Shown piece by piece: positions 22,294 to 38,730 of a DNA stretch of 57,577 nt. Each line of letters opens with the position of its first letter. Position 1 is the first letter of the stretch. Origin of the DNA: Malaciobacter halophilus (lineage in GTDB: Bacteria; Campylobacterota; Campylobacteria; Campylobacterales; Arcobacteraceae); NCBI RefSeq assembly GCF_002837275.1, contig NZ_NXIF01000015.1, forward strand, positions 1 through 57,577, read 5' to 3'. Both the position numbers and the translations under genes were made by a program. A model generated the notes under the pieces. That model had not been told where the DNA came from, made no database searches, and saw only the letters and a program-made list of their open reading frames with translations.

Positions 22294-22932
22294 CTATTCG
22301 AAGTTTTCTAATTCATATAATTTATGAATTATATATTTATTTTTATCAATTTTTTCAATGATTTTTTTCTTTTTTAAATCATTTATTATTGTAGATACTG
22401 TTTGTCTTTTTGAACCAATAAAACTAGAAAGAGTTTTAATAGATAGATTTAAATCTAAAACATATTTTCCATCTCTTTTTTGGTCTTGTGTTGTAGCAAT
22501 TTCAATTAAAAATGAAGATATTTTTTTCTTACAACTTTTAAAAACAAGATTTTTTATAATATTTCTTTCTAATTCTGCTCTATGCTTTAATGAACGAATC
22601 ACAGAAGTAGAAAACTCTTTATTTGCAAATAGATTTGCAAACTTATCTGCATCAATTAAATAAACTTCACTATCTTCTAAAAATTCAATTGCGCATGATG
22701 TTTCAGGTATTATAATATTATTTGCTTTTAAAAAATAAAGAACAAACTCTTCCCCATCTTCATAAATCATTGCTTTTGCTTTTCCACTTTTAAATACATA
22801 AAGTGTTAAAGAACCATCTTCATATTCAAGATTACCTTTTTTGAACTTTTTTATCTTCAAAGATGAAAAATCTTCTTTTGATAAAATCTTAGATAAGTCA
22901 ATCGAGTCAATTCTTAATCTATTAGATTCCAC
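22294..22932 (-). CDS. Crp/Fnr-family regulator with a CooA-like recognition helix
   Basis: A 212-residue regulator: cyclic-nucleotide-like sensor domain (about 20-110), long dimer helix (110-135) and C-terminal winged helix with the recognition helix 'FIGSKRQTVSTIINDL' (171-186). This is close to the CooA helix (IGSSRQTTST), which reads TGTCR half sites, and exactly such sites lie between this gene and the hydrogenlyase operon. The sensor segment 'SCAIEFLEDSEVYLIDADKF' also resembles CooA, with Cys80 conserved, but the CooA haem ligand His77 is Glu here and Cys75 is not Cys. So it is probably not a CO-haem sensor; its signal is unknown (formate, redox or other). Start is GTG with AAGGGAAGGG upstream. 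Confidence 0.85.
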   Translation of the reverse strand: MESNRLRIDSIDLSKILSKEDFSSLKIKKFKKGNLEYEDGSLTLYVFKSGKAKAMIYEDGEEFVLYFLKANNIIIPETSCAIEFLEDSEVYLIDADKFANLFANKEFSTSVIRSLKHRAELERNIIKNLVFKSCKKKISSFLIEIATTQDQKRDGKYVLDLNLSIKTLSSFIGSKRQTVSTIINDLKKKKIIEKIDKNKYIIHKLYELENFE

Positions 22933-23086
22933 TTTTTTCCCTTCCCTTTATAGAATTAAAAACTAAATTTAAGCTCTAATAGCAAAATATTAACGATTTT
23001 ATACTTTTATTATACTAAATGAAAAGAATTAATAAAAAAATATTCAAAAAATTAAATTATTTTTCAATAATAAAAAAATAAATAAA

Positions 23087-23092
23087 ATTATA
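23087..23092 (-). promoter_or_regulatory. Candidate -10 of the Crp/Fnr regulator gene
   Basis: The minus strand reads TATAAT exactly here. Transcription would start near 23080, about 148 bases before the regulator's GTG. The distal palindrome would then be centred near -45.5, which would fit autoregulation. The AT-rich context makes chance matches common. Confidence 0.4.
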
Positions 23093-23117
23093 AAAATAGC
23101 AAAAAAAAAGATATTTT

Positions 23118-23133
23118 TGTCACATTGCTGACA
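23118..23133. promoter_or_regulatory. Distal TGTCA-N6-TGACA operator
   Basis: TGTCACATTGCTGACA: perfect 5-bp half sites with a 6-base spacer, the Crp/CooA-type geometry. Its centre is 105 bp (ten 10.5-bp turns) from that of the proximal site. It may serve the divergent regulator gene, or cooperate with the proximal site. Confidence 0.75.
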
Positions 23134-23222
23134 TATAATAATGTGCCTATTTAGAATATTATCTATTTGCAGAGCTCTTTGGAAGAAAATAATTTACGGC
23201 TTTTTTTGTGAAAAAACTTTTT

Positions 23223-23238
23223 TGTCATATCTATGACA
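23223..23238. promoter_or_regulatory. Proximal TGTCA-N6-TGACA operator of the hydrogenlyase operon
   Basis: TGTCATATCTATGACA: identical half sites to the distal operator with a different spacer, which shows the half sites are what is conserved. With the -10 at 23260-23265 and a start near 23272 it is centred at -41.5, the class II activator position. Confidence 0.8.
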
Positions 23239-23259
23239 GTTAAAACATTATTTTTTTAT

Positions 23260-23265
23260 TATGAT
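23260..23265 (+). promoter_or_regulatory. Candidate -10 element of the hydrogenlyase operon
   Basis: TATGAT, one mismatch from TATAAT. No -35 hexamer is needed if the regulator binds at -41.5. The predicted leader is about 65 bases. The start site is predicted by spacing and not measured. Confidence 0.6.
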
Positions 23266-23336
23266 TCTCTTGTTTATTAATTTTTTATTAATAAAATTAA
23301 TTAGTTAATAATTTAAAGTATACAAAGGGGAAAGTT

Positions 23337-25577
23337 ATGAAAAAAGTTCAAAATACTTGTCCTTATTGTGGAACTGGTTGTAATCTTGATTTACATGTAA
23401 AAGGTAATAAAATCAAAAAAGCAACACCTACAAAAGGACATCATGTTAATGATGGGGAACTTTGTCTAAAAGGTCTTTATGGTTGGGAGTATGTACACTC
23501 ACCTAGAAGACTTACAAGACCATTGATTAGAAAAAAAGATGGTGTATTTTCAAAAGAGGGGAAACTAGAAGAAGTAAGTTTTAAAGAAGCATATGAATTT
23601 GTTGCTTCAAGAATGAAATCAGCTATTGAAAAATATGGTCCAGATAGTATGATGGGATTTTCATCTGCTAGATGCTCAAATGAAGATAACTACACTTTTC
23701 AAAAACTATTTAGAATCTTAGGAACAAACAACATAGATCATTGTGCTAGACTTTGACATGGTCCAACAGTAGTCGGTCTGACTAAAACACTTGGAAATGG
23801 AACAATGACAAATGACTTAGTAGAATTCTCTACACATAGTGACGTATTAGTTTTAATAGGAACAAATACAAGTGAGTGCCACCCAATTATTGCAATGCAA
23901 ATGTTAAGAGGGATTGAAAGAGGCGCAAAAATGATTGTAATTGACCCTAAAAAAACAGATATGGCAAAAAAAGCTGACATATTTATTCAAACTCCAGTGG
24001 GATATAATATTCCATTCTTAAATGCTATGATTAATTGTATTATTGAAGAAGAACTATATGATAAAGAGTTTGTTAAAAACCATTCTCATGGTTTTGAATA
24101 TGTAAAAGAAGCAGTTAAAGAGTTTACTGCAAAAAGAGTTGAAGAAGAGACTGGAATCTCTGAAGAACTAGTAAAACAAGCAGCTAGAACATATGCAAAA
24201 GCTAATGCAGCAGCAATTTGCTACACAATGGGAATGACTCAGTTTATTGATGGAACATCAAATATATTCTCACTTTCAAATCTTGCAATCTTAACAGGAA
24301 ATCTTGGTAAAAAAGGCGCGGGTGTTAATCCTTTAAGAGGACAAAATAATGTTCAAGGTTCGTGTGATATGGGGGCTCTTCCAAATGTAGTTCCAAATGG
24401 ACCTGTAACAAGTAAAGAAGTAAGAGATCATATTAAAGATGTTTGGGGATATGAAATAAGCGATAAAGTTGGTTATCCATTGACAGTTGCACCTGAAAAA
24501 ATAGAAGAAGAGAAATTAAAATTATTATATGTTTTTGGGGAAAATCCTGTAATGAGTGACCCATGGACAGAACACTTTATTCATGCTGTTGAGCATTTAG
24601 AAACTTTTATTGTTCAAGATATCTTTTTAACTGAAACTGCTCAAAAAGCAGATGTTGTTTTACCTGCTGCTTCATGGGCTGAAAAAGATGGAACTTTTTT
24701 AAATACTTCAAGAAGAGTACAGTTAATTAGAAAAGCAGTTGATGCACCTAATAATTTGGAGCCAGATTGGAAAGTTGTTGCAAATATTGCAAAAGAGCTT
24801 AATCTTAAAGGTTTTGATTATACAAGTGCTGAAGATATTTGGAATGAAGTAAGAGAAGTAAATCCAAGATTCTTTGGTGGAATCAGTTATGAAAGAATAG
24901 ATAAAAACGATGGAATTAGCTGGCCTTGTCCTAACTTAGAACATCCTGGTACACCTGTATTATATGAAGGAAATAAATCAATGCTTCCTGATGGTAAATT
25001 TAAATTAGTACCAGTAATTTATGCACAAGATAAAGAGAAAAGAGCAGAGTTAGAAAAAGAGTTTATAGAAAAAACTAATATGCCAGAAGACTATCCAATT
25101 GGTTCTGGAGCATTAAGCGAAAAAGTAAATGAGTTATATCCTTGTTTATTTACAACAGGAAGAAAAGTATTCCATTATCATACAGGAACTATGACAAGAG
25201 AGTGTAAACCTTTAGAGCTTGGTTCAGATATTATGGGAGCAACTATTGAGGTAAGCGAAGATATTGCAAGAGAAAGAGATTTGGATGAAGGTTGTTATGC
25301 CGTAGTTGAGAATAAAAGAGGAAAAATTGCTGCAAGAGTAAATATAAATAGAGATTTACGACATGGAACAATTTTTACAACATTTCACTACGCAGAAGCA
25401 GATGGAAATGTACTTGCAAATGCAGAGGAAAAAGACCCATTATCTGGAATGAATCCTTTAAAAATGACAATTGCAAATATTAAAAAAATATCAGAAAAAG
25501 AGTTTATAGAAGTACGTAATCAAACAGATATACAAATGCACCCTTCAGAATTATATCGTGCAGTAAGGAGACAATAA
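23337..25577 (+). CDS. fdhF: Selenocysteine-containing formate dehydrogenase H (first copy)
   Basis: A 746-residue cytoplasmic molybdopterin formate dehydrogenase. The N-terminal [4Fe-4S] motif is CPYCGTGC (8-15) plus the Cys of 'GELCLKG', with no signal peptide. An in-frame UGA at 23754-23756 (residue 140) in the context ARL-Sec-HGPTVVGL matches the E. coli FdhF active site. The frame is open afterwards to 25577 with 'LRGQNNVQGSCDMG' and 'GENPVMSDPW' motifs and the C-terminal cofactor domain ('FTTGRKVFHYHTGTMTR'). As the first gene of the hyf operon it would feed electrons through HyfA to the hydrogenase. It overlaps hyfA by one base. Confidence 0.95.
23754..23790 (+). promoter_or_regulatory. 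Selenocysteine UGA and SECIS element of the first fdhF
   Basis: The UGA (23754-23756) is followed after 13 bases by the stem TAGTC (23770-23774) / GACTA (23780-23784) closing the loop GGTCT, identical to the SelB-binding loop of E. coli fdhF. The loop begins 18 bases after the UGA. Confidence 0.92.
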
Positions 25578-26143
25578 TGAGCTTACCACTTAAAAATAAA
25601 TATGTAATAGCAGATCCAAACGTATGTATTGGTTGTGCAACTTGTATGGCAGCATGTTATGAGTCTGCTTATGATAGAGGTAAATTAGCGGTTCCAAGAC
25701 TAATTGTAACAAGAACAAAAAGTGGAACAATGCCAAATCAGTGTAGACAGTGTGATGATGCTCCTTGTGCAAATGTTTGTCCTGTTGGTGCTTTAGAGTT
25801 TGAAAAAGATTGTATTGCTTTACATGAAGAGATTTGTATCGGTTGTAAAATGTGTACCGTTGCTTGTCCTTTTGGAGCAATTAGACCAGAAGCAGAGTTA
25901 ATGCCTTCAGTTGATTATACAATGGAGCCTAAATATAACTTAACAATACAATCTGAGATAGGTGTAAAATCAATAGCAGTTAAGTGTGACTTATGTGCAG
26001 GAAGAGAAGATGGACCTTCTTGTGTAGAAGTTTGTCCTACAAATGCCTTGTCTTTTCAAAATAGTTTACATAATAACTTTATAGAAGAGAAAGCGCAAAA
26101 AACTGTTGAGTCTTTTACTAAAGAAAAATTGAAATATATATAA
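25577..26143 (+). CDS. hyfA: Formate hydrogenlyase electron-transfer subunit (HyfA/HycB-like)
   Basis: A 188-residue polyferredoxin with four cysteine clusters: CIGCATCMAAC, CRQCDDAPCANVCPVG, CIGCKMCTVACPFG, and CDLCAGREDGPSCVEVCP. It is expected to carry four [4Fe-4S] clusters and to connect FdhF to the hydrogenase arm in the cytoplasm. Start overlaps the fdhF stop (TAATG). Confidence 0.92.
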   Translation: MSLPLKNKYVIADPNVCIGCATCMAACYESAYDRGKLAVPRLIVTRTKSGTMPNQCRQCDDAPCANVCPVGALEFEKDCIALHEEICIGCKMCTVACPFGAIRPEAELMPSVDYTMEPKYNLTIQSEIGVKSIAVKCDLCAGREDGPSCVEVCPTNALSFQNSLHNNFIEEKAQKTVESFTKEKLKYI

Positions 26144-26153
26144 AGGATACCTA

Positions 26154-28115
26154 ATGACACAAGTATATTTTTTGTATCTTATAGGTTGTATCATATCTTT
26201 ACTATTATATAAACAAAACAAACTTGCAGCAAAAGTAGGGTTTACAATCTCTGCTATTGCTTCAGCTTATGCAGTGTTTTATTTTTTAGTAAATTTAGAA
26301 CAAACAGTTAGTATTAATATGTTTGAAAGCTTACTTTACAGTCCTAAATTGGTTTTAAATCCATTAGGAAACTTTTTCTCATTTGTTGTAAGTTTAGTAT
26401 CACTTGCTTCATCTATTTATGCTATTCAATACTCTTTAGAGTATGAGAAAAAAGGAAGTTTAGCTGTAATGGCAGGATTATTTAATGCATTTGTATTATC
26501 AATGTTATTACTTGTTGCCTCTTCAGATGTATTTTGGTTCATTATCTTCTGGGAGTGTATGACAGTAATTTCAGCTTATTTAATCTGTTTTAATGATTCA
26601 AAAAGTTCATTAAAAGCAATTATGATTTATTTAGGAATTGCACACTTAGGAGCTATGTGTATTACAGCAGCATTTTTATTAATGTCTGCACAAACAGGTT
26701 CATTAGAGTTTAGTTCTTATGCAAATATTAAACTTTCACCTGTAATGGCAAGTATTATTTTCTTATTAGCTTTTATAGGTTTTGGTTCAAAAGCTGGAAT
26801 GTTTCCTATGCATGTTTGGTTACCAAAAGCGCACCCAGCAGCACCAACAAATGTATCTGCACTAATGAGTGGAGTTATGATTAAAGTTGCACTTTTTGGG
26901 ATAATAAAATTTTGTTTATGGTTACCTGTAATGCAATGGTGGGGATTACTAATTATTATTGTTGGTGCATTATCTGCACTACTTGGAGTACTTTATGCAC
27001 TTGTTCAACATGATTATAAAGCACTATTAGCATATCACTCAGTTGAAAATATTGGGATTATTCTTTTAGGTTTAGGAACTGGTGTTTATGCAATTGCAGC
27101 GGATATGCCAACACTTGCAGCTATTGGTTTTCTTGCTGGATTATTCCATATTTTAAATCACGCGACATTTAAAGGATTACTATTCTTAGGTGCAGGTAGC
27201 GTTTTATATACAACACATACTAAAGAGATGGATAATTTAGGTGGATTAGCAAGAAAAATGCCTTTAACTGCCTTTGCTTTTTTAATTGGTTCTTTAGCAA
27301 TTACTGCAATTCCTCCTTTAAATGGATTTGTTAGTGAATGGGTTACTTATCAAGGAATGTTCCAAGGTGCACTTTCAGAGTTTGCAAGTAGTAGAGTTGT
27401 TTTTTGTATAGCAATTGTTGCCTTAGCTTTAACAGGTGCTTTAGCAGTTATGTGTTTTGTAAAAGCATATAGTGTTATTTTTGGAGGAACGCCAAGGGAT
27501 GAAAAACTATTTAATAATGCAAGAGAAGTTCCTTTAACTATGGTAATTGGGATGTTTATTCTTGTAGCAGGATGTATAGCATTTGGACTTGGTGCAAATG
27601 TTGTAGTTAAAGATATTATGCTTGTTGTTTCATCTTTTTCAGGTAATTATGATGCTGTAAATTCAACAGTAATTAATTCACCTATTGGTTCAACAGTATC
27701 TCCTTTATTAATAGCAGCTGTTTTAGTTGTAACTGTATTAATTCCAGTTGTGATTTTAAAAGTAGCAAAAGCTAATAGAAAAGAACCAAGACAGACTGAT
27801 CCATGGGCTTGTGGTTTTAAATATAGTAGTAGAATGCAAATGACAGCTTCTCCTTTTACAGGAGATTTAAGAAGACTAGTTAATTGGTTATATAGAAGTG
27901 AAACAAAAGTTAAAGACCAAGGATATTTTGCACCAGTTGTTTATGAAACACATGCTAAAGATGTATGGTGGAGTATCTTATATGAACCAGTTATCAAGCT
28001 TACAGTTAATACTGCAAAAGTAGTATCAAAAATGCAAAATGGAAATGTAAATATGTATTCATTATATATATTAATCGCATTATGTCTTTTTGTTGGAATT
28101 AGTTACTTAATTTAA
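26154..28115 (+). CDS. hyfB: Hydrogenase-4 proton-translocating membrane subunit HyfB
   Basis: A 653-residue integral membrane protein of the NuoL/MrpA-like family (E. coli HyfB is about 670). Characteristic segments are 'GSKAGMFPMHVWLPKAHPAAPTNVSALMSGVMIKVALFG'-type sequence (about 218-256), 'HDYKALLAYHSVENIGII' and 'LFHILNHATFKGLLFLGAGSVL', with conserved Lys and His of the channel helices. It has a hydrophilic loop before the last helix. It is the main candidate ion-pumping subunit. Confidence 0.94.
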   Translation: MTQVYFLYLIGCIISLLLYKQNKLAAKVGFTISAIASAYAVFYFLVNLEQTVSINMFESLLYSPKLVLNPLGNFFSFVVSLVSLASSIYAIQYSLEYEKKGSLAVMAGLFNAFVLSMLLLVASSDVFWFIIFWECMTVISAYLICFNDSKSSLKAIMIYLGIAHLGAMCITAAFLLMSAQTGSLEFSSYANIKLSPVMASIIFLLAFIGFGSKAGMFPMHVWLPKAHPAAPTNVSALMSGVMIKVALFGIIKFCLWLPVMQWWGLLIIIVGALSALLGVLYALVQHDYKALLAYHSVENIGIILLGLGTGVYAIAADMPTLAAIGFLAGLFHILNHATFKGLLFLGAGSVLYTTHTKEMDNLGGLARKMPLTAFAFLIGSLAITAIPPLNGFVSEWVTYQGMFQGALSEFASSRVVFCIAIVALALTGALAVMCFVKAYSVIFGGTPRDEKLFNNAREVPLTMVIGMFILVAGCIAFGLGANVVVKDIMLVVSSFSGNYDAVNSTVINSPIGSTVSPLLIAAVLVVTVLIPVVILKVAKANRKEPRQTDPWACGFKYSSRMQMTASPFTGDLRRLVNWLYRSETKVKDQGYFAPVVYETHAKDVWWSILYEPVIKLTVNTAKVVSKMQNGNVNMYSLYILIALCLFVGISYLI

Positions 28116-28126
28116 AGGAGTAGATT

Positions 28127-29050
28127 ATGGACAGTATATTATTTATGATTTTACAAGTTGTTTCAATTGTTCTTATAGCTCCTTTATTTGACGGAATGGC
28201 AAGAAAGCTAAGAGCTAAATTACAATCAAGAGAAGGTGCACCTGATGTGTTTCAAACTTATAGAGATATTAAAAAACTTTTAAAAAGAAGTAGAACAGCA
28301 CCATCATGCGCACACTGGGTTTTTAAAGTAGGGCCTTTTGCTCTTTTTGCAGCAGGAGCAGCACTACTTGCAACAATACCTGTTACATATAGTACAAATA
28401 GTTTTGCTGGAGCCTATTCAGATATATTAGTATTTATCTATTTAGGAGCACTTTTAAGATTTGCATTTGGTGCAACATCAATTGATTCTGGAAATCCATT
28501 TGCAGGTGTAGGTGGAGGAAGAGAACAAATTTTAGGGATTTTTGTTGAACCTGTGATGATGATAAGTTTATTAGTAGTGATTTTATTAGCAGGAACTACA
28601 AATTTAGTTGAAATTCAACACTTAGTAAGAAGTGGAGAAGTTGGTTACCACACACCAGCTTTTGCAATTGCTTCAATATCATTTTTATGGGTAGTTTATG
28701 TGGAAACTGGAAGAAAACCATATGATGTTGCAGAAGCAGAGCAAGAGTTACAAGAGGGTGTTTTAGGAGAGTATTCAGGCTCAGATTTTTCAATAGCACA
28801 TGCTGCTTTAATATTAAAACAAGTTGCAATTATTGGATTGTTTTTAAGTATATTCGAACCATGGAATTTTGAAAATCCATTTTTAGCATTAATTGTTTTT
28901 ATCTTAAAAGTTGGAATTTTTTATGTTGCTGCTGTATTTATTGATAACTTTGGACCTAGATTTAAAGTATTAACAAGTCTTAAAAATAGTGCAATACCTC
29001 CATTAGTTATCTCTATTGTAGCACTTATTTTATATGTAGTAGGAGTATAA
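28127..29050 (+). CDS. hyfC: Hydrogenase-4 membrane subunit HyfC (NuoH/HycD-like)
   Basis: A 307-residue membrane protein with about eight helices that anchors the soluble arm. The NuoH/HycD signatures 'GAPDVFQTYRDIKKLLKR' (about 36-53) and 'VYVETGRKPYDVAEAEQELQEG' (about 190-210) are seen; the acidic loop lies at the interface to the large subunit. Confidence 0.94.
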   Translation: MDSILFMILQVVSIVLIAPLFDGMARKLRAKLQSREGAPDVFQTYRDIKKLLKRSRTAPSCAHWVFKVGPFALFAAGAALLATIPVTYSTNSFAGAYSDILVFIYLGALLRFAFGATSIDSGNPFAGVGGGREQILGIFVEPVMMISLLVVILLAGTTNLVEIQHLVRSGEVGYHTPAFAIASISFLWVVYVETGRKPYDVAEAEQELQEGVLGEYSGSDFSIAHAALILKQVAIIGLFLSIFEPWNFENPFLALIVFILKVGIFYVAAVFIDNFGPRFKVLTSLKNSAIPPLVISIVALILYVVGV

Positions 29051-29051
29051 A

Positions 29052-29699
29052 ATGATTGATTTATTAAGTATATTATCAATATTTTTAATTATTAGTTCAC
29101 TTAGTGTTTTTGGGATAAGAAACTATAAACTTGCTACATATGCGTACTCATTTCAGACGTTTATTCTAGTAATGATATTTCTTTTTCTTTATAAAACGTA
29201 TTCAGCAGATGAGTTAGGTGGTTGGGCGATTATTGCCTTTTTTACAAAAGTTCTTTTTGTTCCAGCTATCTTATTAAGACTTATTAAAAAATTAAATGTT
29301 GAACATGAAGATGAACCCGTACTTGGATTTTATGTAAGTCCAATAGTTGCTATTGCATTCTCTTTAGCTATTGCAATGGCTTTATATCCAATATATTTAA
29401 AATTTTCATTAATTAAAGAGCATATTCCTTTAATTGCATCAATTACAATCTTTATGATTGGAATTTTTGGATTTGTTTTAAGAAACTCAGCAATTAAACA
29501 AATACTTGCTTATTGTACTTTTGAAAATGGAATTCACTTATCTTTAGCATTGATGGCTTATAACTCGCCTGAAATTGTTGAGTTAGGTATTTTAACTGAT
29601 GCTTTATTTGCTGTAATAATTACATCTATTTTTGCGACTAGATTTTTTAAATATTTTGGCTCTTTAGATGTATCAAAAGCAACAGAGTTGAAAGGATAA
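29052..29699 (+). CDS. hyfE: Hydrogenase-4 membrane subunit HyfE
   Basis: A 215-residue membrane protein with about six to seven helices of the HyfE type; its C-terminal half ('LRNSAIKQILAYCTFENGIHLSL') is similar to NuoK. It lies directly after hyfC. In E. coli hyfD lies between hyfC and hyfE, and no hyfD is present here. Confidence 0.88.
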   Translation: MIDLLSILSIFLIISSLSVFGIRNYKLATYAYSFQTFILVMIFLFLYKTYSADELGGWAIIAFFTKVLFVPAILLRLIKKLNVEHEDEPVLGFYVSPIVAIAFSLAIAMALYPIYLKFSLIKEHIPLIASITIFMIGIFGFVLRNSAIKQILAYCTFENGIHLSLALMAYNSPEIVELGILTDALFAVIITSIFATRFFKYFGSLDVSKATELKG

Positions 29700-29702
29700 G
29701 AG

Positions 29703-31187
29703 ATGGACATTCAACAATTATTATATTTATTAATGGTTCTTCCAGTTATTGCATCAGTAATAATTTGGTTTTTACCAACAAATTATAAAGCATTAAGTAG
29801 CTTTCATATACTTGGCTCTATTGTAACTAGTATCGTAGGTTTATTAGCCGTATCAAAAGTAATTGATGGACAAACATATTTTATATTTGATGAGATGTTT
29901 TTCTTAGACTCTTTAGGGGCAGTTTTTGTTTCATTAATCTCTGTTACTGGACTTTTAGTAAATCTTTATTCTGTTAAGTATATGCAATGGGAAGTTCAAA
30001 AAGGTGAATTAACTGTAAAAGATACAAAACTATTTTTTAGTCTATTTCATTTATTTGTTTTTACAATGACTTTTTCAGTTTTAGCAAATAATATTGCTTT
30101 AATGTGGGTAGGTATTGAAGCTACTACATTATCTTCTGTGTTTATGGTTGCAATTCATAAGAGTAAAAAATCAACTGAAACAGGATGGAAATATATCATT
30201 ATTTGTAGTATTGGTTTAGCATTTGCTTTATATGCAACAGTATTACTTTATAGTGCAGGTTTTAATATTATAAATGATAGTCATAGTTCAATGTTATGGA
30301 CTACACTAATGGCTCATTCAAAAGAGATTGACCCAGATGCATTAAAACTTATTTTTGTATTTGCCTTAATTGGTTTTGGAACAAAAGCAGGTCTTGCTCC
30401 AACACATACATGGTTACCTGATGTTCACTCAGAAGGTCCAGCTCCTTCTTCAGCGATGCTTTCAGGAATACTTTTAAAATGTGCGATTTTAGGTCTTATT
30501 AGATATTACGCAGTAGTAGGAAACTCTTTAGCAGGTTTTGAATATGTACAATCACTTATGATTATAAGTGGATTAGTAACAATTTTTATTGCATCATTTT
30601 TCTTACTTATGCAACATGATGTTAAAAGAATGTTTGCATATCACTCAATTGCACATATGGGAGTTATTGCTTTTGGATTAGGAATTGGTGGAGCAGTAGG
30701 ATTATTTGCTGCATTATTCCATGCCTTAGCTCACTCAGTTACTAAAGCATTAGCATTTTGTGTTACAGGAAATATGATTCAAATTTATGGAACAAGAGAT
30801 ATGACAAAAATGGGTGGATTGATAAAAATAGCACCAATTACTGCAATTTTATTTGGTATAGCTGTTTGTTCTTTAGTAGGTGTGCCAGGTTTTGCTATTT
30901 TTGTAAGTGAATTTTTGATGATTAAACAATCAATTGTAAATGGACTAAACTTAGAAGTTACACTATTTATTATAGGTCTAATTATAATTTTTATTGCTGA
31001 CTTTTCACACTTTAATCTTGCGACATTTGGAAAAAGTAACTCAAAAGTTTTAACAAATGAGTTACCTTTAAGCGCAAACCTACCACTAATTGGACTTGCT
31101 TCATTGATTATAATTTTTGGGGTATTTACTATAAAACCTTGGTTTGCACTATTACACAATGCAGTAAATATTATTATGGGAATATAA
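29703..31187 (+). CDS. hyfF: Hydrogenase-4 proton-translocating membrane subunit HyfF
   Basis: A 494-residue NuoN/M-like antiporter-type subunit with about 14 helices. 'GFGTKAGLAPTHTWLPDVHSEGPAPSSAMLSGILLK' (about 222-257), 'HDVKRMFAYHSIAHMGVIAFG' and 'ALFHALAHSVTKALAFC' are the diagnostic segments. With HyfB it gives two antiporter-like subunits, as compared with three in E. coli hydrogenase 4. Confidence 0.94.
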   Translation: MDIQQLLYLLMVLPVIASVIIWFLPTNYKALSSFHILGSIVTSIVGLLAVSKVIDGQTYFIFDEMFFLDSLGAVFVSLISVTGLLVNLYSVKYMQWEVQKGELTVKDTKLFFSLFHLFVFTMTFSVLANNIALMWVGIEATTLSSVFMVAIHKSKKSTETGWKYIIICSIGLAFALYATVLLYSAGFNIINDSHSSMLWTTLMAHSKEIDPDALKLIFVFALIGFGTKAGLAPTHTWLPDVHSEGPAPSSAMLSGILLKCAILGLIRYYAVVGNSLAGFEYVQSLMIISGLVTIFIASFFLLMQHDVKRMFAYHSIAHMGVIAFGLGIGGAVGLFAALFHALAHSVTKALAFCVTGNMIQIYGTRDMTKMGGLIKIAPITAILFGIAVCSLVGVPGFAIFVSEFLMIKQSIVNGLNLEVTLFIIGLIIIFIADFSHFNLATFGKSNSKVLTNELPLSANLPLIGLASLIIIFGVFTIKPWFALLHNAVNIIMGI

Positions 31188-31197
31188 GGAGATAGTT

Positions 31198-32937
31198 ATG
31201 AAAGTAGGTCAAGAATTAATTGATAAAGTAAAAGAAAAAATTGCAATACAAGAGGTTTATAGACAGCCAGAAGATCAAATAACAATTACAGTAGATAGAA
31301 ATGATCTTCCTGAAGCAGTAAGAATTTTATATTATGATTTAGGTGGTTGGTTATCAACAATGATTCCAAATGATGAAAGACAAATAAATGGTAATTATGC
31401 TTTATATTATGTACTTTCTATGGAAGGTAATAAGATGTTTGAAGGGGATGAGTTACCACAAGAACAAAAGTGTTGGATTACTGTAAAAACTTATCTTCCT
31501 GCATCTGATTTAACTTTTCCTTCTGTTACATTAAAAGTTCCAGCTGCTGTTTGGTATGAAAGAGAAGCTTATGATATGTTTGGTTTAACAGCAGTTGGTT
31601 TACCAGATCCAAGAAGATTAATGGTATCAGATGATTGGCCAGAAGGATTATTTCCATTAAGAAAAGATTCAATGGATTATAGACATAGACCAGACCCAGT
31701 TGATCATAAAGATGAGCCAGATTATGAGTTTATGAAACCTCAAGGTGCAGGGGTTTTAGATGTACCTTTAGGGCCTTTACATATTACTAGTGATGAACCA
31801 GGACACTTTAGATTATATTGTGATGGTGATACTATTATTGATGCAGATTATAGACTTTTTTACCAACACAGAGGTATGGAAAAACTTGCAGAAAATAGAA
31901 TGAACTATGACCAAATGGGATATTTAGCAGAAAGAGTTTGTGGAATTTGTGGATATGCCCACGCCATTGCTTGTATAGAGTCTGCTGAAAAAGCAATAGG
32001 ACTTGAAATACCTTTAAGAGCTCAAGCTATGAGAGTTATTTGTTTAGAGATTGAAAGACTTCACTCTCATTTATTAAATATCGGTCTTGCTTGTGAAGTA
32101 ACTGGAAATATGAATGCTTTTATGCATATTTTTAGAATTAGAGAATTTTCTATGGAGTTAGCCCAATTAGTAACAGGTGGAAGAAAAACATACGGAAATG
32201 TTGTTATGGGTGGACTTAGAAGAGATATGACTGGTGATGAGATTAAAAAAAGTTTAGAACTTTTAAAAACTATCGAAAAACAGCTTCAAGAAGTTTGGGA
32301 TGCTGTAATGGATGATAAACATCAAGTTGCTAGATGGAAAGGTGTAGGTATTTTAGATAAACAAGTAGCAAGAGATTTCTCTCCTGTTGGTCCAAATGTA
32401 AGAGGAAGTGGATTTAAAAGAGATTCAAGATATGACCATCCATATGACTTCTTAGATAAATTAGATTTTAATATTCCAACAGAAGATGGTTGTGATGTAT
32501 TTGCAAGGGAAACTGTAAGATATAAAGAGCTATTAGAATCAATCTCTATTATTAGACAATGTTTTGAGATGATGCCAGGAGGACAAACTATTATTACTCC
32601 TCAAACAATGATTAAACCAGAAGCTTATGCTTTAGGAAATGATGAAGCACCAAGAGGTGAAAATATTCACTGGATAATGCATGGTAATGCTCAAAAAGTT
32701 TATAGATGGAGATGTAGAGCAGCTACTTATAATAACTGGCCATCTTTAAGATTTCAGTTTAGAGGAAATACTATTGCAGATGCAGCCTTGATTGTTTGTT
32801 CATTAGACCCTTGTTTCTCTTGTACAGAAAGAGTAACAGTTGTTGATGTTAATAGTAAAAAAACAAAAATATTAACACATAAAGACTTGAAAAGATATTC
32901 ACAATCTTTAAAAAGTCATCCATTGAAAAATATGTAG
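31198..32937 (+). CDS. hyfG: Group 4 [NiFe]-hydrogenase large subunit HyfG
   Basis: A 579-residue fusion of a NuoC-like N-terminal domain (about 1-170) and a NuoD/[NiFe] large-subunit domain. The nickel-binding cysteines are in 'ERVCGICGYAHA' (about 243-253) and 'DPCFSCTER' (about 538-546), both CxxC pairs intact, so this is a true hydrogenase and not a complex I relative. The tail after the second motif is about 33 residues and is the expected substrate for the HycI protease. AAGGAG precedes the ATG. Confidence 0.95.
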   Translation: MKVGQELIDKVKEKIAIQEVYRQPEDQITITVDRNDLPEAVRILYYDLGGWLSTMIPNDERQINGNYALYYVLSMEGNKMFEGDELPQEQKCWITVKTYLPASDLTFPSVTLKVPAAVWYEREAYDMFGLTAVGLPDPRRLMVSDDWPEGLFPLRKDSMDYRHRPDPVDHKDEPDYEFMKPQGAGVLDVPLGPLHITSDEPGHFRLYCDGDTIIDADYRLFYQHRGMEKLAENRMNYDQMGYLAERVCGICGYAHAIACIESAEKAIGLEIPLRAQAMRVICLEIERLHSHLLNIGLACEVTGNMNAFMHIFRIREFSMELAQLVTGGRKTYGNVVMGGLRRDMTGDEIKKSLELLKTIEKQLQEVWDAVMDDKHQVARWKGVGILDKQVARDFSPVGPNVRGSGFKRDSRYDHPYDFLDKLDFNIPTEDGCDVFARETVRYKELLESISIIRQCFEMMPGGQTIITPQTMIKPEAYALGNDEAPRGENIHWIMHGNAQKVYRWRCRAATYNNWPSLRFQFRGNTIADAALIVCSLDPCFSCTERVTVVDVNSKKTKILTHKDLKRYSQSLKSHPLKNM

Positions 32938-32946
32938 GAGTAAGAG

Positions 32947-33483
32947 ATGAAACTACTAGATATGACAAAAAAGTATGGAAGTGCAACACATAAATACCCT
33001 TTAGAACCTTATGAAGTAAATGAAGGTTTTAGAGGGAAACCTTCTTATACATATGAAAATTGTATAGGTTGTACAGCTTGTGGAGTTGCTTGTCCATCAA
33101 ATGCAATAAATGTGAAATTAAATGAAGAAAATACAAAACTTGTTTGGGAGTTTAATGCTGCAAGATGTATCTTTTGTGGAAGATGCGATGAGGTATGCCC
33201 AACAAGTGCTATTGTACTTTCAAAAGAGTTTGAATTAGCAGTTAAGTTTGATAAAAAGAATCTTTTAGAAAGAGGGGAACTTGATGTTCAATATTGTGAA
33301 GTTTGCAATAAACCTTTTACAACAAAGAAACTAATTGCTTATAACATAAATAGATTGCAAAAAGCTGGATGGGATAAAAAAAGTTTAGATAAAAAAGTTA
33401 AATATATAAGAACTTGCACTGATTGTAAAAGAAATCATGAAGTTGAAAATTTAACAAGTAATTTTAAAAGGGGTACAAAATGA
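32947..33483 (+). CDS. hyfH: Hydrogenase-4 ferredoxin-like subunit HyfH
   Basis: A 178-residue NuoI-type protein with two [4Fe-4S] motifs: CIGCTACGVACP (about 39-50) and CIFCGRCDEVCP (about 77-88). A C-terminal CxxC pair of pairs (CEVCNKPF and CTDCKRNHE) could bind an additional metal, probably Zn, as in HycF. It relays electrons to HyfI. It overlaps hyfI by 4 bases. Confidence 0.93.
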   Translation: MKLLDMTKKYGSATHKYPLEPYEVNEGFRGKPSYTYENCIGCTACGVACPSNAINVKLNEENTKLVWEFNAARCIFCGRCDEVCPTSAIVLSKEFELAVKFDKKNLLERGELDVQYCEVCNKPFTTKKLIAYNINRLQKAGWDKKSLDKKVKYIRTCTDCKRNHEVENLTSNFKRGTK

Positions 33484-34295
33484 ATAAAACATATGTAGTA
33501 CCAGAAGATATAAAAGAGGCTAATAATCTTGAGGCAAAATTAGAACACTTAAAAAATATTAAACAAAGTTTTAATGTTTATAGAGTCGATTGTGGTTCTT
33601 GTAACGGTTGTGAAATTGAGATTTTTGCAGCTATTACACCTATGTGGGATCCAGAAAGATTAGGTTTTAAGCTTGTTGCAAGTCCAAGACATGCAGATAT
33701 TTTAATATGTTCAGGTCCAGTTACTAGACAGATGTATTATCCTTTATTAAGAGCATATGAAGCAACACCAGATCCAAAAGTTGTAGTGGCAATTGGTGCT
33801 TGTGGTTCAAGTGGAGGTATTTTCCATGATGCATATAGTGTTTGGGGTGGAATTGATAAGGTTATTCCTGTGGATGTATATATTCCAGGATGTCCTCCAC
33901 ACCCTGCAACTATTGTTCATGGTTTAGCATCGGCTCTTGGAATTTTAGAACAAAAACTTGAGTATAAAGAGCATAAAGATGGCTCAGTTGAATCTCCTTT
34001 ATTAGAAGAGTCTTTAATGGGAAATATACTTTTTGAAAGGGATGTTTTAGCAGAGTCTAAAAGATTAATGAGTTACTACTTTGGTAGAAAACTTTATGAT
34101 AAGTATATGAATGCTTTAAAAAAAGTAAAAGATATTAAAAATATTCAAGAAGTAAAAAAAGTAATTGAGATTTACAGTGCTGAAGAGGAAGATGCAAGAT
34201 ATGAAGAGTGTATGAGAAGACTTCATAATAGTGTTTACTTAAAGTATATGAAACAGTTTACAATCATCAATGATGGGGATAAATTTAAAATTTAA
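33480..34295 (+). CDS. hyfI: Group 4 [NiFe]-hydrogenase small subunit HyfI
   Basis: A 271-residue NuoB-like small subunit with one [4Fe-4S] cluster: 'DCGSCNGCEIEIFA' (about 37-50), 'GACGSSGG' (about 107-114) and 'PGCPPHP' (about 138-144). It delivers electrons to the nickel-iron site of HyfG. The C-terminal about 90 residues extend beyond NuoB, as in HycG/HyfI proteins. Confidence 0.94.
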   Translation: MNKTYVVPEDIKEANNLEAKLEHLKNIKQSFNVYRVDCGSCNGCEIEIFAAITPMWDPERLGFKLVASPRHADILICSGPVTRQMYYPLLRAYEATPDPKVVVAIGACGSSGGIFHDAYSVWGGIDKVIPVDVYIPGCPPHPATIVHGLASALGILEQKLEYKEHKDGSVESPLLEESLMGNILFERDVLAESKRLMSYYFGRKLYDKYMNALKKVKDIKNIQEVKKVIEIYSAEEEDARYEECMRRLHNSVYLKYMKQFTIINDGDKFKI

Positions 34296-34305
34296 AGAAG
34301 TTAAA

Positions 34306-34653
34306 ATGATAGAAATATGTAAATTAACTAAAAGAAGAGTAGATCCTACATCACCTGATTTACCTGAAAAATATAAACAAGTGAAAATCTTTTCAATGGC
34401 TGTTGGTCATGGTGTGGGAACTGTAGATTTTATGGAGTGCATAAAAAAAATGCCAGAAGATGAGTATTTGCAAATTGTTAATAATTGTGATGAGTATGCT
34501 CAGTTTAAATTAGGAAACCTTACAAAATATTTTGAAATAGAGGTTTTCCCAGAGCATGCAAAACTTTTAGTACCGCAAATGCCAGATTGTTACTTAAAAA
34601 CACTTTTTTCTTCACTAGATGAAGGATTTATTGTAATAAGGAAAAGCATATGA
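34306..34653 (+). CDS. HycH-like formate hydrogenlyase maturation protein
   Basis: A 115-residue soluble protein beginning MIEICKLTKRRV, with 'KIFSMAVGHGVGTVDFMECIKK' resembling HycH/HyfJ, needed for hydrogenase 3/4 assembly. Frame is open from 34270, inside hyfI, but the ATG at 34306 follows the hyfI stop and gives the family's usual length. It overlaps hycI by 4 bases. Confidence 0.8.
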   Translation: MIEICKLTKRRVDPTSPDLPEKYKQVKIFSMAVGHGVGTVDFMECIKKMPEDEYLQIVNNCDEYAQFKLGNLTKYFEIEVFPEHAKLLVPQMPDCYLKTLFSSLDEGFIVIRKSI

Positions 34654-35105
34654 AAAAAGCAATTTTAACAATAGGAAATACATTAAGAGGCGATGATGGA
34701 GTTACTGCTTATTTAGGAAGTTTAATTGAAAAAGAAGACTCTTTAGATTGGCAGATATTTTATGGGGAAGATACTCCAGAGAGCCAATTTCATAAAATAA
34801 GAGAGTATGCACCTGATTTAATAATTGTAGCTGATGCTATGACAGGAATGAAAATAGGAAGTGTTGAAGTTATGGATTTGAGTGATGATAGGGATTATAT
34901 GTACTCTACTCATAACTTACCAGCACCAATATTAATTAGTTATTTAAAAGGATTTTGTAAAAGAGTTCTTTTTTTAGGATTAACAGTTGATATTGAGAAT
35001 GTATTAGATGTAAATGAAGAAGTTTCAGATGAAGCTAAACAAACAGCAAAAAGTGCTTTTGAAAAAGTAAAAGAAATAGATTCAATTTTTGATGATAATA
35101 ATTAA
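34650..35105 (+). CDS. hycI: Hydrogenase maturation protease HycI
   Basis: A 151-residue endopeptidase that trims the C-terminus of the hydrogenase large subunit after nickel insertion. The start 'ILTIGNTLRGDDGVTAYLG' carries the metal-sensing Asp (D16/D17 region), 'DAMTGMKIG' the second, and 'YSTHNLPAPILISYL' the His. Its target here would be HyfG. Confidence 0.92.
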   Translation: MKKAILTIGNTLRGDDGVTAYLGSLIEKEDSLDWQIFYGEDTPESQFHKIREYAPDLIIVADAMTGMKIGSVEVMDLSDDRDYMYSTHNLPAPILISYLKGFCKRVLFLGLTVDIENVLDVNEEVSDEAKQTAKSAFEKVKEIDSIFDDNN

Positions 35106-35119
35106 GGGAAGGAAGAGTT

Positions 35120-35974
35120 ATGTTATCACCAGCAGATACGGCACAGTCATTAGTAAAAGGTTTAGAGCATAAGGTAAAAATGCCAATAGTAAGTATTATT
35201 TTCTTATCTATTATGGCAGGAGGATCAATTGCAATGGGTGATATTTTTTGGGCCCATTCTACAGTAGGAGTAGCAGAAGCAAGTGCTCCAGGAATTGCAA
35301 ACTTCTTAGGAGGTCTTGCCTTTTCTGTGGGGCTTATGATGGTAGTGTTTTTTGGTGGACATCTATTTACTAGTTCATTAATGACAGGAGTTTCAACAAT
35401 CGAACATAAATTATCATTTTCTAAAATGATATTTTATTGGGTTATTGTATGGATTTTTAACTTTGTTGGGGCATTTGTAGTTGCTTATATGTATTACAAA
35501 ACACAGTTGCCTTTAAAATATGATGGAGCAATTTTACATCACTTTTTACATCTAGGAGTTGTAAAAAGTAATCTATCTTTTGAAGCAGCATTTATTAGAG
35601 GAATCTTTTGTAACGTATTTGTTTGTATGGCAGTATGGGCAGCAACAGGAGCATCTGATGCAGCTGGTAAAGTTTTATCAATCGCATTTATTATTGCAGC
35701 ATTTGTTGGTTCAGGTTATGAACACGTTGTTGCAAATATGTTTATTTTTAGTGAAGCACTTTTTGCAAAAGCGCATTATCTTAATGAAGCAGGAGGTACA
35801 ATTCAAGCATTAGCAGAGCATTCACATATAGCAGTAGATAAATTAGAACAATTAACTATGTTTAAAATTGTTCCAAATAATCTATTACCTGTAACTTTAG
35901 GAAATATAGTTGGAGGTTTATTTTTTGTTGGAGTGATTGGTTTTATGTCGCATAAAACTGATATGAAAAAATAG
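35120..35974 (+). CDS. focA: Formate channel of the FNT family
   Basis: A 284-residue pentameric formate/nitrite transporter with six helices. 'GGLAFSVGLMMVVFFGGHLFTSSLMTG' is the L2-type loop region and 'FIRGIFCNVFVCMAVWAATGASDAAGK' the second half-repeat; 'GSGYEHVVANMF' contains the conserved central pore His. It brings formate to the cytoplasmic FdhF enzymes or releases excess. It lies between hycI and the second fdhF. Confidence 0.92.
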   Translation: MLSPADTAQSLVKGLEHKVKMPIVSIIFLSIMAGGSIAMGDIFWAHSTVGVAEASAPGIANFLGGLAFSVGLMMVVFFGGHLFTSSLMTGVSTIEHKLSFSKMIFYWVIVWIFNFVGAFVVAYMYYKTQLPLKYDGAILHHFLHLGVVKSNLSFEAAFIRGIFCNVFVCMAVWAATGASDAAGKVLSIAFIIAAFVGSGYEHVVANMFIFSEALFAKAHYLNEAGGTIQALAEHSHIAVDKLEQLTMFKIVPNNLLPVTLGNIVGGLFFVGVIGFMSHKTDMKK

Positions 35975-35989
35975 AAGGAATAAAATAAA

Positions 35990-38236
35990 ATGAAAAAAAC
36001 AAACGTAATTTGTCCCTATTGTGGGACGGGTTGCGGAGTTAGTTTAACTTCGCATGAGAATAGAATAGTAAAAGCAAGAGGTATTAAAGACCATCCAGTA
36101 AATGAAGGTCATTTATGTTTAAAAGGTATTTATGGTTGGGATTATGTAAGTTCAAAAGAGAGATTAACAAAACCTTTAATTAGAAAAAAAGATGGAGTAT
36201 TCTCAAAAGATGGAGAGTTTGTAGAGTCTTCTTGGGATGAGGCACTTGATTTAGTTGTTTCTAAAATGAAAGAGATTAAACAAAAATTTGGTCCAGATGC
36301 AATTGCAGGAAATTTTTCAGCAAGATGTACTTTAGAAGAGAATTATGTGGCTCAAAAATTTATGAGAGCAATCATAGGTACAAACAATATTGATCACTGC
36401 GCGAGAGTTTGACATGCACCAACAGTAGCCGGTCTGGCTAAAACAATTGGTAATGGTACAGCTACAAACAGTTTCACAGAGATTGGAGAACATTCAAATT
36501 GTGTATTAATGATTGGTTCAAATCCAGAAAATGGACATCCAATTGCAGCAATGCATATACAAAGAGCAATATCAAGAGGTGCAAAATTAATAGTAATTGA
36601 CCCAATTAAAACTGAATTTGCACAAAAAGCGGATGTATTTATTCAGCTTCCTCCGGAGTATAATATTCCGGTTATAAATATGCTAATTTTGCATATTATT
36701 GAAAATAATTTATATGATAAAGAGTTTGTTGAAAAATATACTCATGGCTTTGAATACTTAAAAGAAGCAGTAAAAGAATACACTTCTGAAAAAGTATCAA
36801 AAATGACAGGAGTTGATGAAGAGTTATTAATTAAAGCAGCAGAAATTTATGCTACATCAAAACCTGCAGCTATTACTCATGGTATGGGTGTAACACACTT
36901 TAATCATGGAGTAGGTAATGTTTGTGATATTTCTAATTTGATGTTAATTACAGGAAATATTGGAGAGTTAGGAGCAGGAGATTTACCTCTTAGAGGTCAA
37001 CAAAATGTTCAAGGTGCTTGTGATATGGGAATTTTACCAAATATATTTCCAAATCTTAAACTTGTAACTAGCAAGGAAGCTAGAGAGTTTTTTGAAGAAC
37101 TTTGGGATTGTAAACAAGAACTTAGTTCAAAAATAGGTATTCATAAAACAGAAGTTCCAGATGCAATTTTAGATGGAAGAGTTAAGCTTTTTTATACAAT
37201 TGGTGAAAATCCAGTTATTTCAGAGCCTAATACTAACCACTTTTTAAAAGGAATTTCAAAACTTGATTTTTATGTAGTTCAAGATATATTTTTAACAGAA
37301 ACAGCACTTAAAGCAGATGTTGTTTTACCTGCTGTTAGTGTTGCAGAAAAACAAGGATGTTATTTAAATGCTGAAAGAAGAGTTCAATTAAATGAAAAAA
37401 CATTAGAACCAAAAGGAGATGTTAAACAAGATTGGGAAATTACTTGTGAACTTGCAAAAAGATTTGATGCAAAAGATTTTAATTATACAACACCTGAAGA
37501 AATTTGGAATGAAGTAAGAGTTGCAGACCCAATAAGATTTAAAGGTATTACTTATAAAAGATTAAGAGAAATAAATGGTATTGCATGGCCTTGTCCTAGT
37601 GAAGATCATCCTGGAACACCAAGTTTGTATATGGATAAAAAGTTTTTTACAAAAGATAAAAAAGCTAATTTAGTACCAGTTATTTTCATTGATGATAAAA
37701 ATGATACACAAAAAGCACAAGAGCAACTTCGTAAAAAGTTAAATTTACCTGAAGGTTATCCTTGTATGGTAGGTTCTGTGGATGAAAAAACAGATGAGAA
37801 ATTTCCTATTTCACTTCTTACTACAAGAAAAGTATATCAATATACTGTTGGAACAATGACTAGAAAGTCAAGAATTATAGAAGAGGGTGGAGATGCCCAT
37901 GGGCCAACAGCTGAAATAAATCCAGCTCTTGCAAAAAGATACAATCTTAAAAATAAAGATTTTATAAAAGTAGAGAGTAGATATGGATATATTGCAGTTT
38001 TAGTAGAGATTACTCAAACAGTACCTGATAATGTAATGCAAATGACTTTTCACTATTGGGAAGGTTTATGTAATGAATTAACAAGTTCTGGGTGGGATTA
38101 TACAACTAAAACACCTACATATAAAGCTGCTGTAAGAATGGAAAAAATTTCTCAAGAAGAGTATAGCCAGATTATGGAGATTAAAAAACTTAAGTTTAAA
38201 ACATCTAAAATTATTTATGATGATTATCATCATTAA
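35990..38236 (+). CDS. fdhF: Selenocysteine-containing formate dehydrogenase H (second copy)
   Basis: A 748-residue paralogue of the first fdhF of nearly equal length, also without a signal peptide. The [4Fe-4S] motif is CPYCGTGC (7-14). The in-frame UGA at 36410-36412 (residue 141) sits in ARV-Sec-HAPTVAGL, closer to E. coli FdhF (CARV-Sec-HGP) than copy one. Motifs after it include 'LRGQQNVQGACDMG' and 'TRKVYQYTVGTMTRKS'. It is the last gene of the operon, ending just before a terminator. Two catalytic subunits in one operon could exchange on HyfA, differ in metal (Mo or W), or differ in partner. Confidence 0.95.
36410..36446 (+). promoter_or_regulatory. Selenocysteine UGA and SECIS element of the second fdhF
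   Basis: The UGA (36410-36412) is followed by the perfect stem TAGCC (36426-36430) / GGCTA (36436-36440) with the loop GGTCT starting 18 bases after the UGA. It is compensatory to the TAGTC/GACTA stem of the first copy, which supports the structure. Confidence 0.93.
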
Positions 38237-38379: not shown

Positions 38380-38730
38380 ATGCAACAAGATACAAAAGAT
38401 AAAACAGTATTTTTAAAATCAGATAAAATTGGTGAAGGTGAACTTGGTTCTATGTTAATAAGAGGCTTTTTAAAAGCAATGGTAGAGCAAGAGAAGTTAC
38501 CAAGTAAAATAATTTGTGTAAATAGTGCAGTTTTATTAACTACAACAAATGATGAAAATGATGATGCACTAATTGCTTTAAAAGATTTACAGTCAAAAGG
38601 AGTAGAGATTTTTTCTTGTGGAACTTGTCTTGACTTTTATGAAAAAAGAGATGACTTAAAAGTTGGAGTTGCAGGAAATGCAATGGATACAATACAAACA
38701 CTTCTAAACACTAATACAGTAACTTTATAG
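38380..38730 (+). CDS. YedF-like selenium-associated DsrE-fold protein
   Basis: A 116-residue protein with the C-terminal DsrE-like domain of YedF-type 'selenium metabolism' proteins: 'LKSDKIGEGELGSMLIRGFLKAM' and 'LKDLQSKGVEIFSCGTCLDFYE' with a CxxC-like CGTC near residues 86-89. The N-terminal TusA-like domain of full YedF (about 200 residues) is absent. Such proteins occur with selenoprotein genes; position directly after three Sec genes fits a role in selenium or sulfur handling. Function is not established. Confidence 0.8.
   Translation: MQQDTKDKTVFLKSDKIGEGELGSMLIRGFLKAMVEQEKLPSKIICVNSAVLLTTTNDENDDALIALKDLQSKGVEIFSCGTCLDFYEKRDDLKVGVAGNAMDTIQTLLNTNTVTL

Follow-up and report, generated by a model that had tools for sequence, protein, structure and literature searches.

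A CooA-like regulator without the haem histidine as predicted activator of formate hydrogenlyase genes in Malaciobacter halophilus and other Campylobacterota

Introduction

Which protein switches on the formate hydrogenlyase (FHL) genes of Malaciobacter halophilus? The question is raised by a 57,577-nucleotide stretch of contig NZ_NXIF01000015.1 (the window, meaning the whole stretch analysed), in which a gene for a Crp/Fnr regulator diverges from an FHL operon. FhlA with sigma-54 activates an FHL operon in E. coli but is of a protein class unrelated to this regulator. A preliminary description of the locus had proposed that the regulator stands in for FhlA and sigma-54, and the genome indeed lacks a convincing sigma-54 activator: matches to PF00158 reach at most 29.8 bits, with none above 30, and we attribute them to cross-matching by other AAA proteins. 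No -24/-12 promoter with two or fewer mismatches was found in the divergent gap, and Rfam gave no match in the window. Orthologues of ArcA, FNR, and NarP do not occur in Campylobacterota, according to a review of respiration (PMC6682613), and the part of another account considered here describes Campylobacterota FHL-type clusters without naming a regulator (PMC6242987). The literature searched, with most subscription papers outside its scope, contained no prior account of an FHL-linked CooA-like regulator. From sequence comparison, a relative of CooA without the haem histidine appears to be the dedicated on-switch of formate-to-hydrogen genes across much of the Arcobacter/Sulfurospirillum/Campylobacter phylum.

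The Formate Hydrogenlyase Operon

The FHL operon comprises 13 genes, fdhF1 to fdhF2 (23337-38236, plus strand), and unites FdhF, a group 4 hydrogenase, and a formate channel in one run of ORFs that overlap or lie no more than 16 bp apart. It opens with fdhF1 (23337-25577), a formate dehydrogenase gene with an in-frame TGA for selenocysteine (TIGR01591, 724 bits), followed by a gene for a hydN-like ferredoxin subunit (25577-26143), the hydrogenase genes hyfBCEFGHI with a hycH-like gene (26154-34653; subunit letters assigned from order and similarity), and a hycI-like maturation protease gene named by position and sequence (34650-35105). A formate channel gene of the FocA family (35120-35974; the match does not reach the curated threshold of FocA proper) and fdhF2, the second formate dehydrogenase gene with an in-frame TGA (35990-38236; 735 bits), complete the run. 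Just 3′ of these two TGA-containing formate dehydrogenase genes is one for a YedF-type selenium metabolism protein (38380-38730; TIGR03527, 127.8 bits). Because pyruvate formate-lyase was not found in the genome, formate is probably imported through the FocA-family channel.

A Regulator of the CooA Lineage

The regulator gene (22294-22932, minus strand), identified as an ORF with similarity to CooA, has a GTG start and encodes 212 amino acids. The nearest PDB chains are CooA-1 (8e-22; profile 5e-26) and R. rubrum CooA, with NtcA, CprK, and CRP far behind. The Campylobacterota regulators form one clade (100/99) that is sister to, not nested in, the CooA-type proteins; support for this branch is moderate (88/83), its branches are long, and only three CooA-type sequences were used. 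Alignment shows that CRP residues ~72-82 are missing in the regulator as in CooA, which requires this deletion for haem accommodation (PMC12937710, PMC12750200); the region of the phosphate-binding cassette of cAMP-type CRP is deleted. The CooA lineage proposed in the preliminary description is thus upheld by the closest PDB chains, the sister position, and the common haem-loop deletion, and the recognition helix (GSKRQTVST, against GSSRQTTST in CooA) is as reported there. Confidence in the structure prediction is modest (pLDDT 75.6, pTM 0.52), and the fold scores place CooA above CRP proteins in nominal rank only.

The protein resembles CooA of R. rubrum and C. hydrogenoformans in its CRP/FNR fold, short haem-accommodating loop, RQT-ST recognition helix, TGTC-N8-GACA operator, and predicted control of an energy-converting hydrogenase; unlike CooA, it lacks His77, its genome lacks CO dehydrogenase, and its predicted target is formate hydrogenlyase. 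HcpR and DNR are also CRP/FNR regulators in anaerobic metabolism, some of them haem-binding, but the loop that is short in CooA and the Campylobacterota regulators is extended in HcpR (PMC12750200). C. concisus 13826_2145, an unnamed protein that a respiratory survey of this species counts among putative CRP/FNR regulators (PMC6155014), is a possible counterpart of the Campylobacter orthologues.

Operators and Promoter Geometry

The divergent gap holds two perfect TGTCA-N6-TGACA palindromes, exactly where first described and 105 bp apart: a distal operator, TGTCACATTGCTGACA (23118-23133), which is kept in relatives of groups g1 and g3 and at locus L084, and a proximal operator, TGTCATATCTATGACA (23223-23238). 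They are the only perfect copies in the genome, and the reversed control pattern has none; this uniqueness alone is unremarkable because base composition leads one to expect ~2.3 perfect palindromes per genome. It is their placement, not their number, that is striking, the chance of two falling within one 404-bp gap being ~6e-8. The sites conform to the CooA operator consensus TGTC-N8-GACA (PMC7306483), which is present and conserved at the predicted regulator sites. TATGAT (23260-23265, plus strand), the predicted -10 of the FHL operon, begins exactly 21 bp past the proximal operator; with a predicted start at 23272, the operator centre (23230.5) falls at -41.5, as had been claimed. The combination of proximal operator, 21-bp spacer, and TAnnnT is the sole zero-mismatch match genome-wide.

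The proximal site recurs at FHL promoters of Arcobacter-type, Sulfurospirillum, Nautiliaceae-like, and Campylobacter genomes, so that the proposed operator is kept in relatives. TAnnnT starts exactly 21 bp after it in 14 of 14 FHL loci (mean at other offsets 1.07 loci, maximum 6), which bears out the class II (-41.5) geometry; the TGTC-N8-GACA core is intact in 13 of these, the remaining site, at L088, having been picked by eye with one changed outer base (CGTC). Within each genome the combination of operator and 21-bp spacing occurs almost uniquely, on FHL promoters, and controls give zero matches. At L080, L081, and L082 the first fdhF was undetected, and the operator directly precedes hydN. 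In Campylobacter FHL operons the operator precedes hydN-hyfB; six such loci came from a search that required the spacing, and L161 and L165 were found without that requirement, with degenerate outer bases (CGTC, GACG). Loss of the operator in Campylobacter, suggested by its absence from the regulator-fdhF gap, was rejected once the site before hydN-hyfB was found.

Sites found without using the spacing also display it in at least one direction: TGTC-N8-GACA at the torA-type Campylobacter loci L099, L100, L101, L103, L106, and L107, sites in Nautiliaceae-like genomes (L104, L130-L132) that neighbour rhodanese-like genes, and a site at the Rhodobacter cooA-like/cowN locus. The Campylobacter paralogues L099-L103 and L105-L107 adjoin a TAT-signal molybdopterin enzyme (torA-like) where inspected (L099, L100, L106). 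A Nautiliaceae-like paralogue clade (L089, L096, L098, L104, L130, L131) has an invariant Cys76 and, in the inspected loci, diverges from a rhodanese-like gene. Extra composite sites in group g10 genomes precede fdhD in G055 (FdhD, 302 bits) and a hydrogenase small-subunit gene in G067 (TIGR00391, 402 bits), which fits a putative formate/hydrogen regulon; for four others (L145, L146, L154, L159), two of which are intragenic, no clear connection is apparent. G067, whose regulator has Val77, also carries a strong CO dehydrogenase match (G067:C5:232421-234292, 766 bits), on a contig with no composite operator match. Many perfect palindromes in regulator-less genomes are one recurring sequence, and counts are otherwise like those of the reversed control; they look like background or an unrelated conserved sequence.

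The Distal Site

Ten helical turns had been proposed as the distance between operators. This describes the 105 bp of the window but is not a rule: spacings of 105, 104, 116, 116, 115, and 161 bp (9.9 to 15.3 turns) occur, with 104-116 bp in close relatives and 161 bp in another genus, and L047, L048, L050, L083, and L085 have one operator only. L086 (G161) has abutting tandem 16-bp operators upstream of fdhF, two intact and a third altered at one outer base. The distal operator is lineage-restricted and absent from most relatives.

The suggestion of autoregulation through the distal site is supported in part. The minus-strand TATAAT (23087-23092), a possible -10 of the regulator gene, is present but lies 25 bp from the distal operator, a spacing found again only in the close relative L079; on the regulator side, three of the six loci (L080, L081, L084) have TAnnnT 21 bp away, and L082 has it at neither 21 nor 25 bp. 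Adjusting expression of the regulator gene itself is the probable role of the distal site, and only in some lineages.

Distribution among Genomes

Regulator orthologues occur in eight of 104 Arcobacteraceae genomes, and HyfE in exactly these eight (~4e-12 counting the 104 genomes as independent, although such naive probabilities are overstated because genomes and loci have common ancestry). Six further family matches are weak (E 1e-4 to 1e-3, 26-29% identical); the four included in the tree group with other Crp/Fnr proteins. In Sulfurospirillum-type genomes the regulator accompanies the FHL-type cluster (HyfE 67-76% identical), and genomes with the other Hyf cluster alone (HyfE 56-58%) are without it. 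Sampling 397 genomes across the phylum gave 61 with a homologue, a count that takes in paralogues in other gene neighbourhoods. In Arcobacter-type and Sulfurospirillum genomes and in two Nautiliaceae-like ones, the gene and fdhF or hydN are divergently arranged.

The Haem Site and the Signal

Loss of the CooA haem ligands had been reported for this protein, and an ungapped alignment with CooA around the site agrees: the His77 column holds Glu77 and the Cys75 column Ile75. Cys75 is no criterion for CooA, because in Rhodobacter the CooA-like protein encoded next to cowN retains His77 with Val in the Cys75 column. Two Nautiliaceae-like orthologues at the same locus, L088 and L097, retain His77; the remaining FHL-linked orthologues have Glu or Asp, or in a few cases Val or Asn, together with Cys80. 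That the His77 proteins are imported CooA, and so group with CooA, was rejected (AU p 0.002). Parsimony requires two changes at this position, either two losses or two gains, and the common loop deletion favours losses, without proof. CooA has a further haem ligand in its N-terminal amine (Pro2); at residue 2, close relatives of the regulator carry Glu or Asp, and L083 and L084 carry Pro, but a sequence does not reveal amine coordination as such.

It is possible, though unlikely, that haem is still bound through Cys80 or another ligand and that CO, NO, or redox is sensed much as in CooA. The haem-accommodating deletion, the invariance of Cys80 in the Arcobacter/Sulfurospirillum set and the aligned Campylobacter FHL set, and the His77 of the two Nautiliaceae-like orthologues argue for such a site, against which stand the replacement of the proximal histidine in all other orthologues and the C-helix residues Lys116 and Arg118, invariant in alignment A1 but Gly and Ala in R. 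rubrum CooA. CO dehydrogenase, moreover, was found neither in the M. halophilus genome (best TIGR01702 match 36.5 bits, against a cut-off of 478 bits) nor in the two His77-bearing genomes. The conservation of Cys80 could also mean, in an equally doubtful reading, that this thiol, joined in some lineages by Cys134, senses oxidation and confines FHL production to reduced or anaerobic conditions. The hyf genes of C. concisus are indeed modelled as off under microaerobic conditions (PMC6155014), but that pattern is a model, not a measurement; Campylobacter orthologues lack Cys134, and Cys80 is missing from the His77 forms and most Campylobacter torA-type paralogues.

We think it improbable that allostery has been lost and the regulator is active whenever present, control then being exerted on its own expression. 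Some CRP/FNR proteins with salt-bridged pockets have been described as non-allosteric (PMC12937710), and the charged residues at the C-helix haem face and the autoregulation-like site in some lineages point the same way, but the strong conservation of residues around the pocket suggests a ligand. CRP/FNR proteins can repress as well as activate; repression here is nevertheless very improbable, as an operator fixed at -41.5 that overlaps the -10 in none of the 14 loci has the geometry of class II activation.

We therefore consider it likely, with some confidence, that the regulator is a CooA-lineage, dimeric class II activator that switches on the 13-gene FHL operon from TGTCA-N6-TGACA at -41.5 and has given up CO sensing through the canonical His77 haem. 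Family relationship, operator conservation, operator-promoter geometry, and co-occurrence with FHL all lend this comparative support; binding and activation are what we infer from them. The dimer would bind at 23223-23238 and, as a class II activator at the promoter at 23260-23265, would turn on fdhF1 to fdhF2. The protein keeps the short loop but has Glu77, the conserved Cys80, and the charged Lys116 and Arg118, and is probably no longer a canonical His77-ligated haem CO sensor. A different effector or a redox state is the likely trigger, perhaps tied to external formate or to scarce or missing electron acceptors; formate or redox, as named in the preliminary description, are guesses.

Implications

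Whether this is a phylum-wide branch of the CooA lineage that lost the haem histidine, kept the haem-shaped loop, DNA code, and promoter geometry, and came to control formate hydrogenlyase in response to a non-haem signal, with a His77 form surviving at the same locus in Nautiliaceae-like genomes, seems to us evenly balanced. The locus points to a single candidate regulator and a single operator code for FHL in much of the phylum, and the His77, Glu/Asp77, and Cys76 forms may serve as a natural series for studying signal change in a haem sensor.
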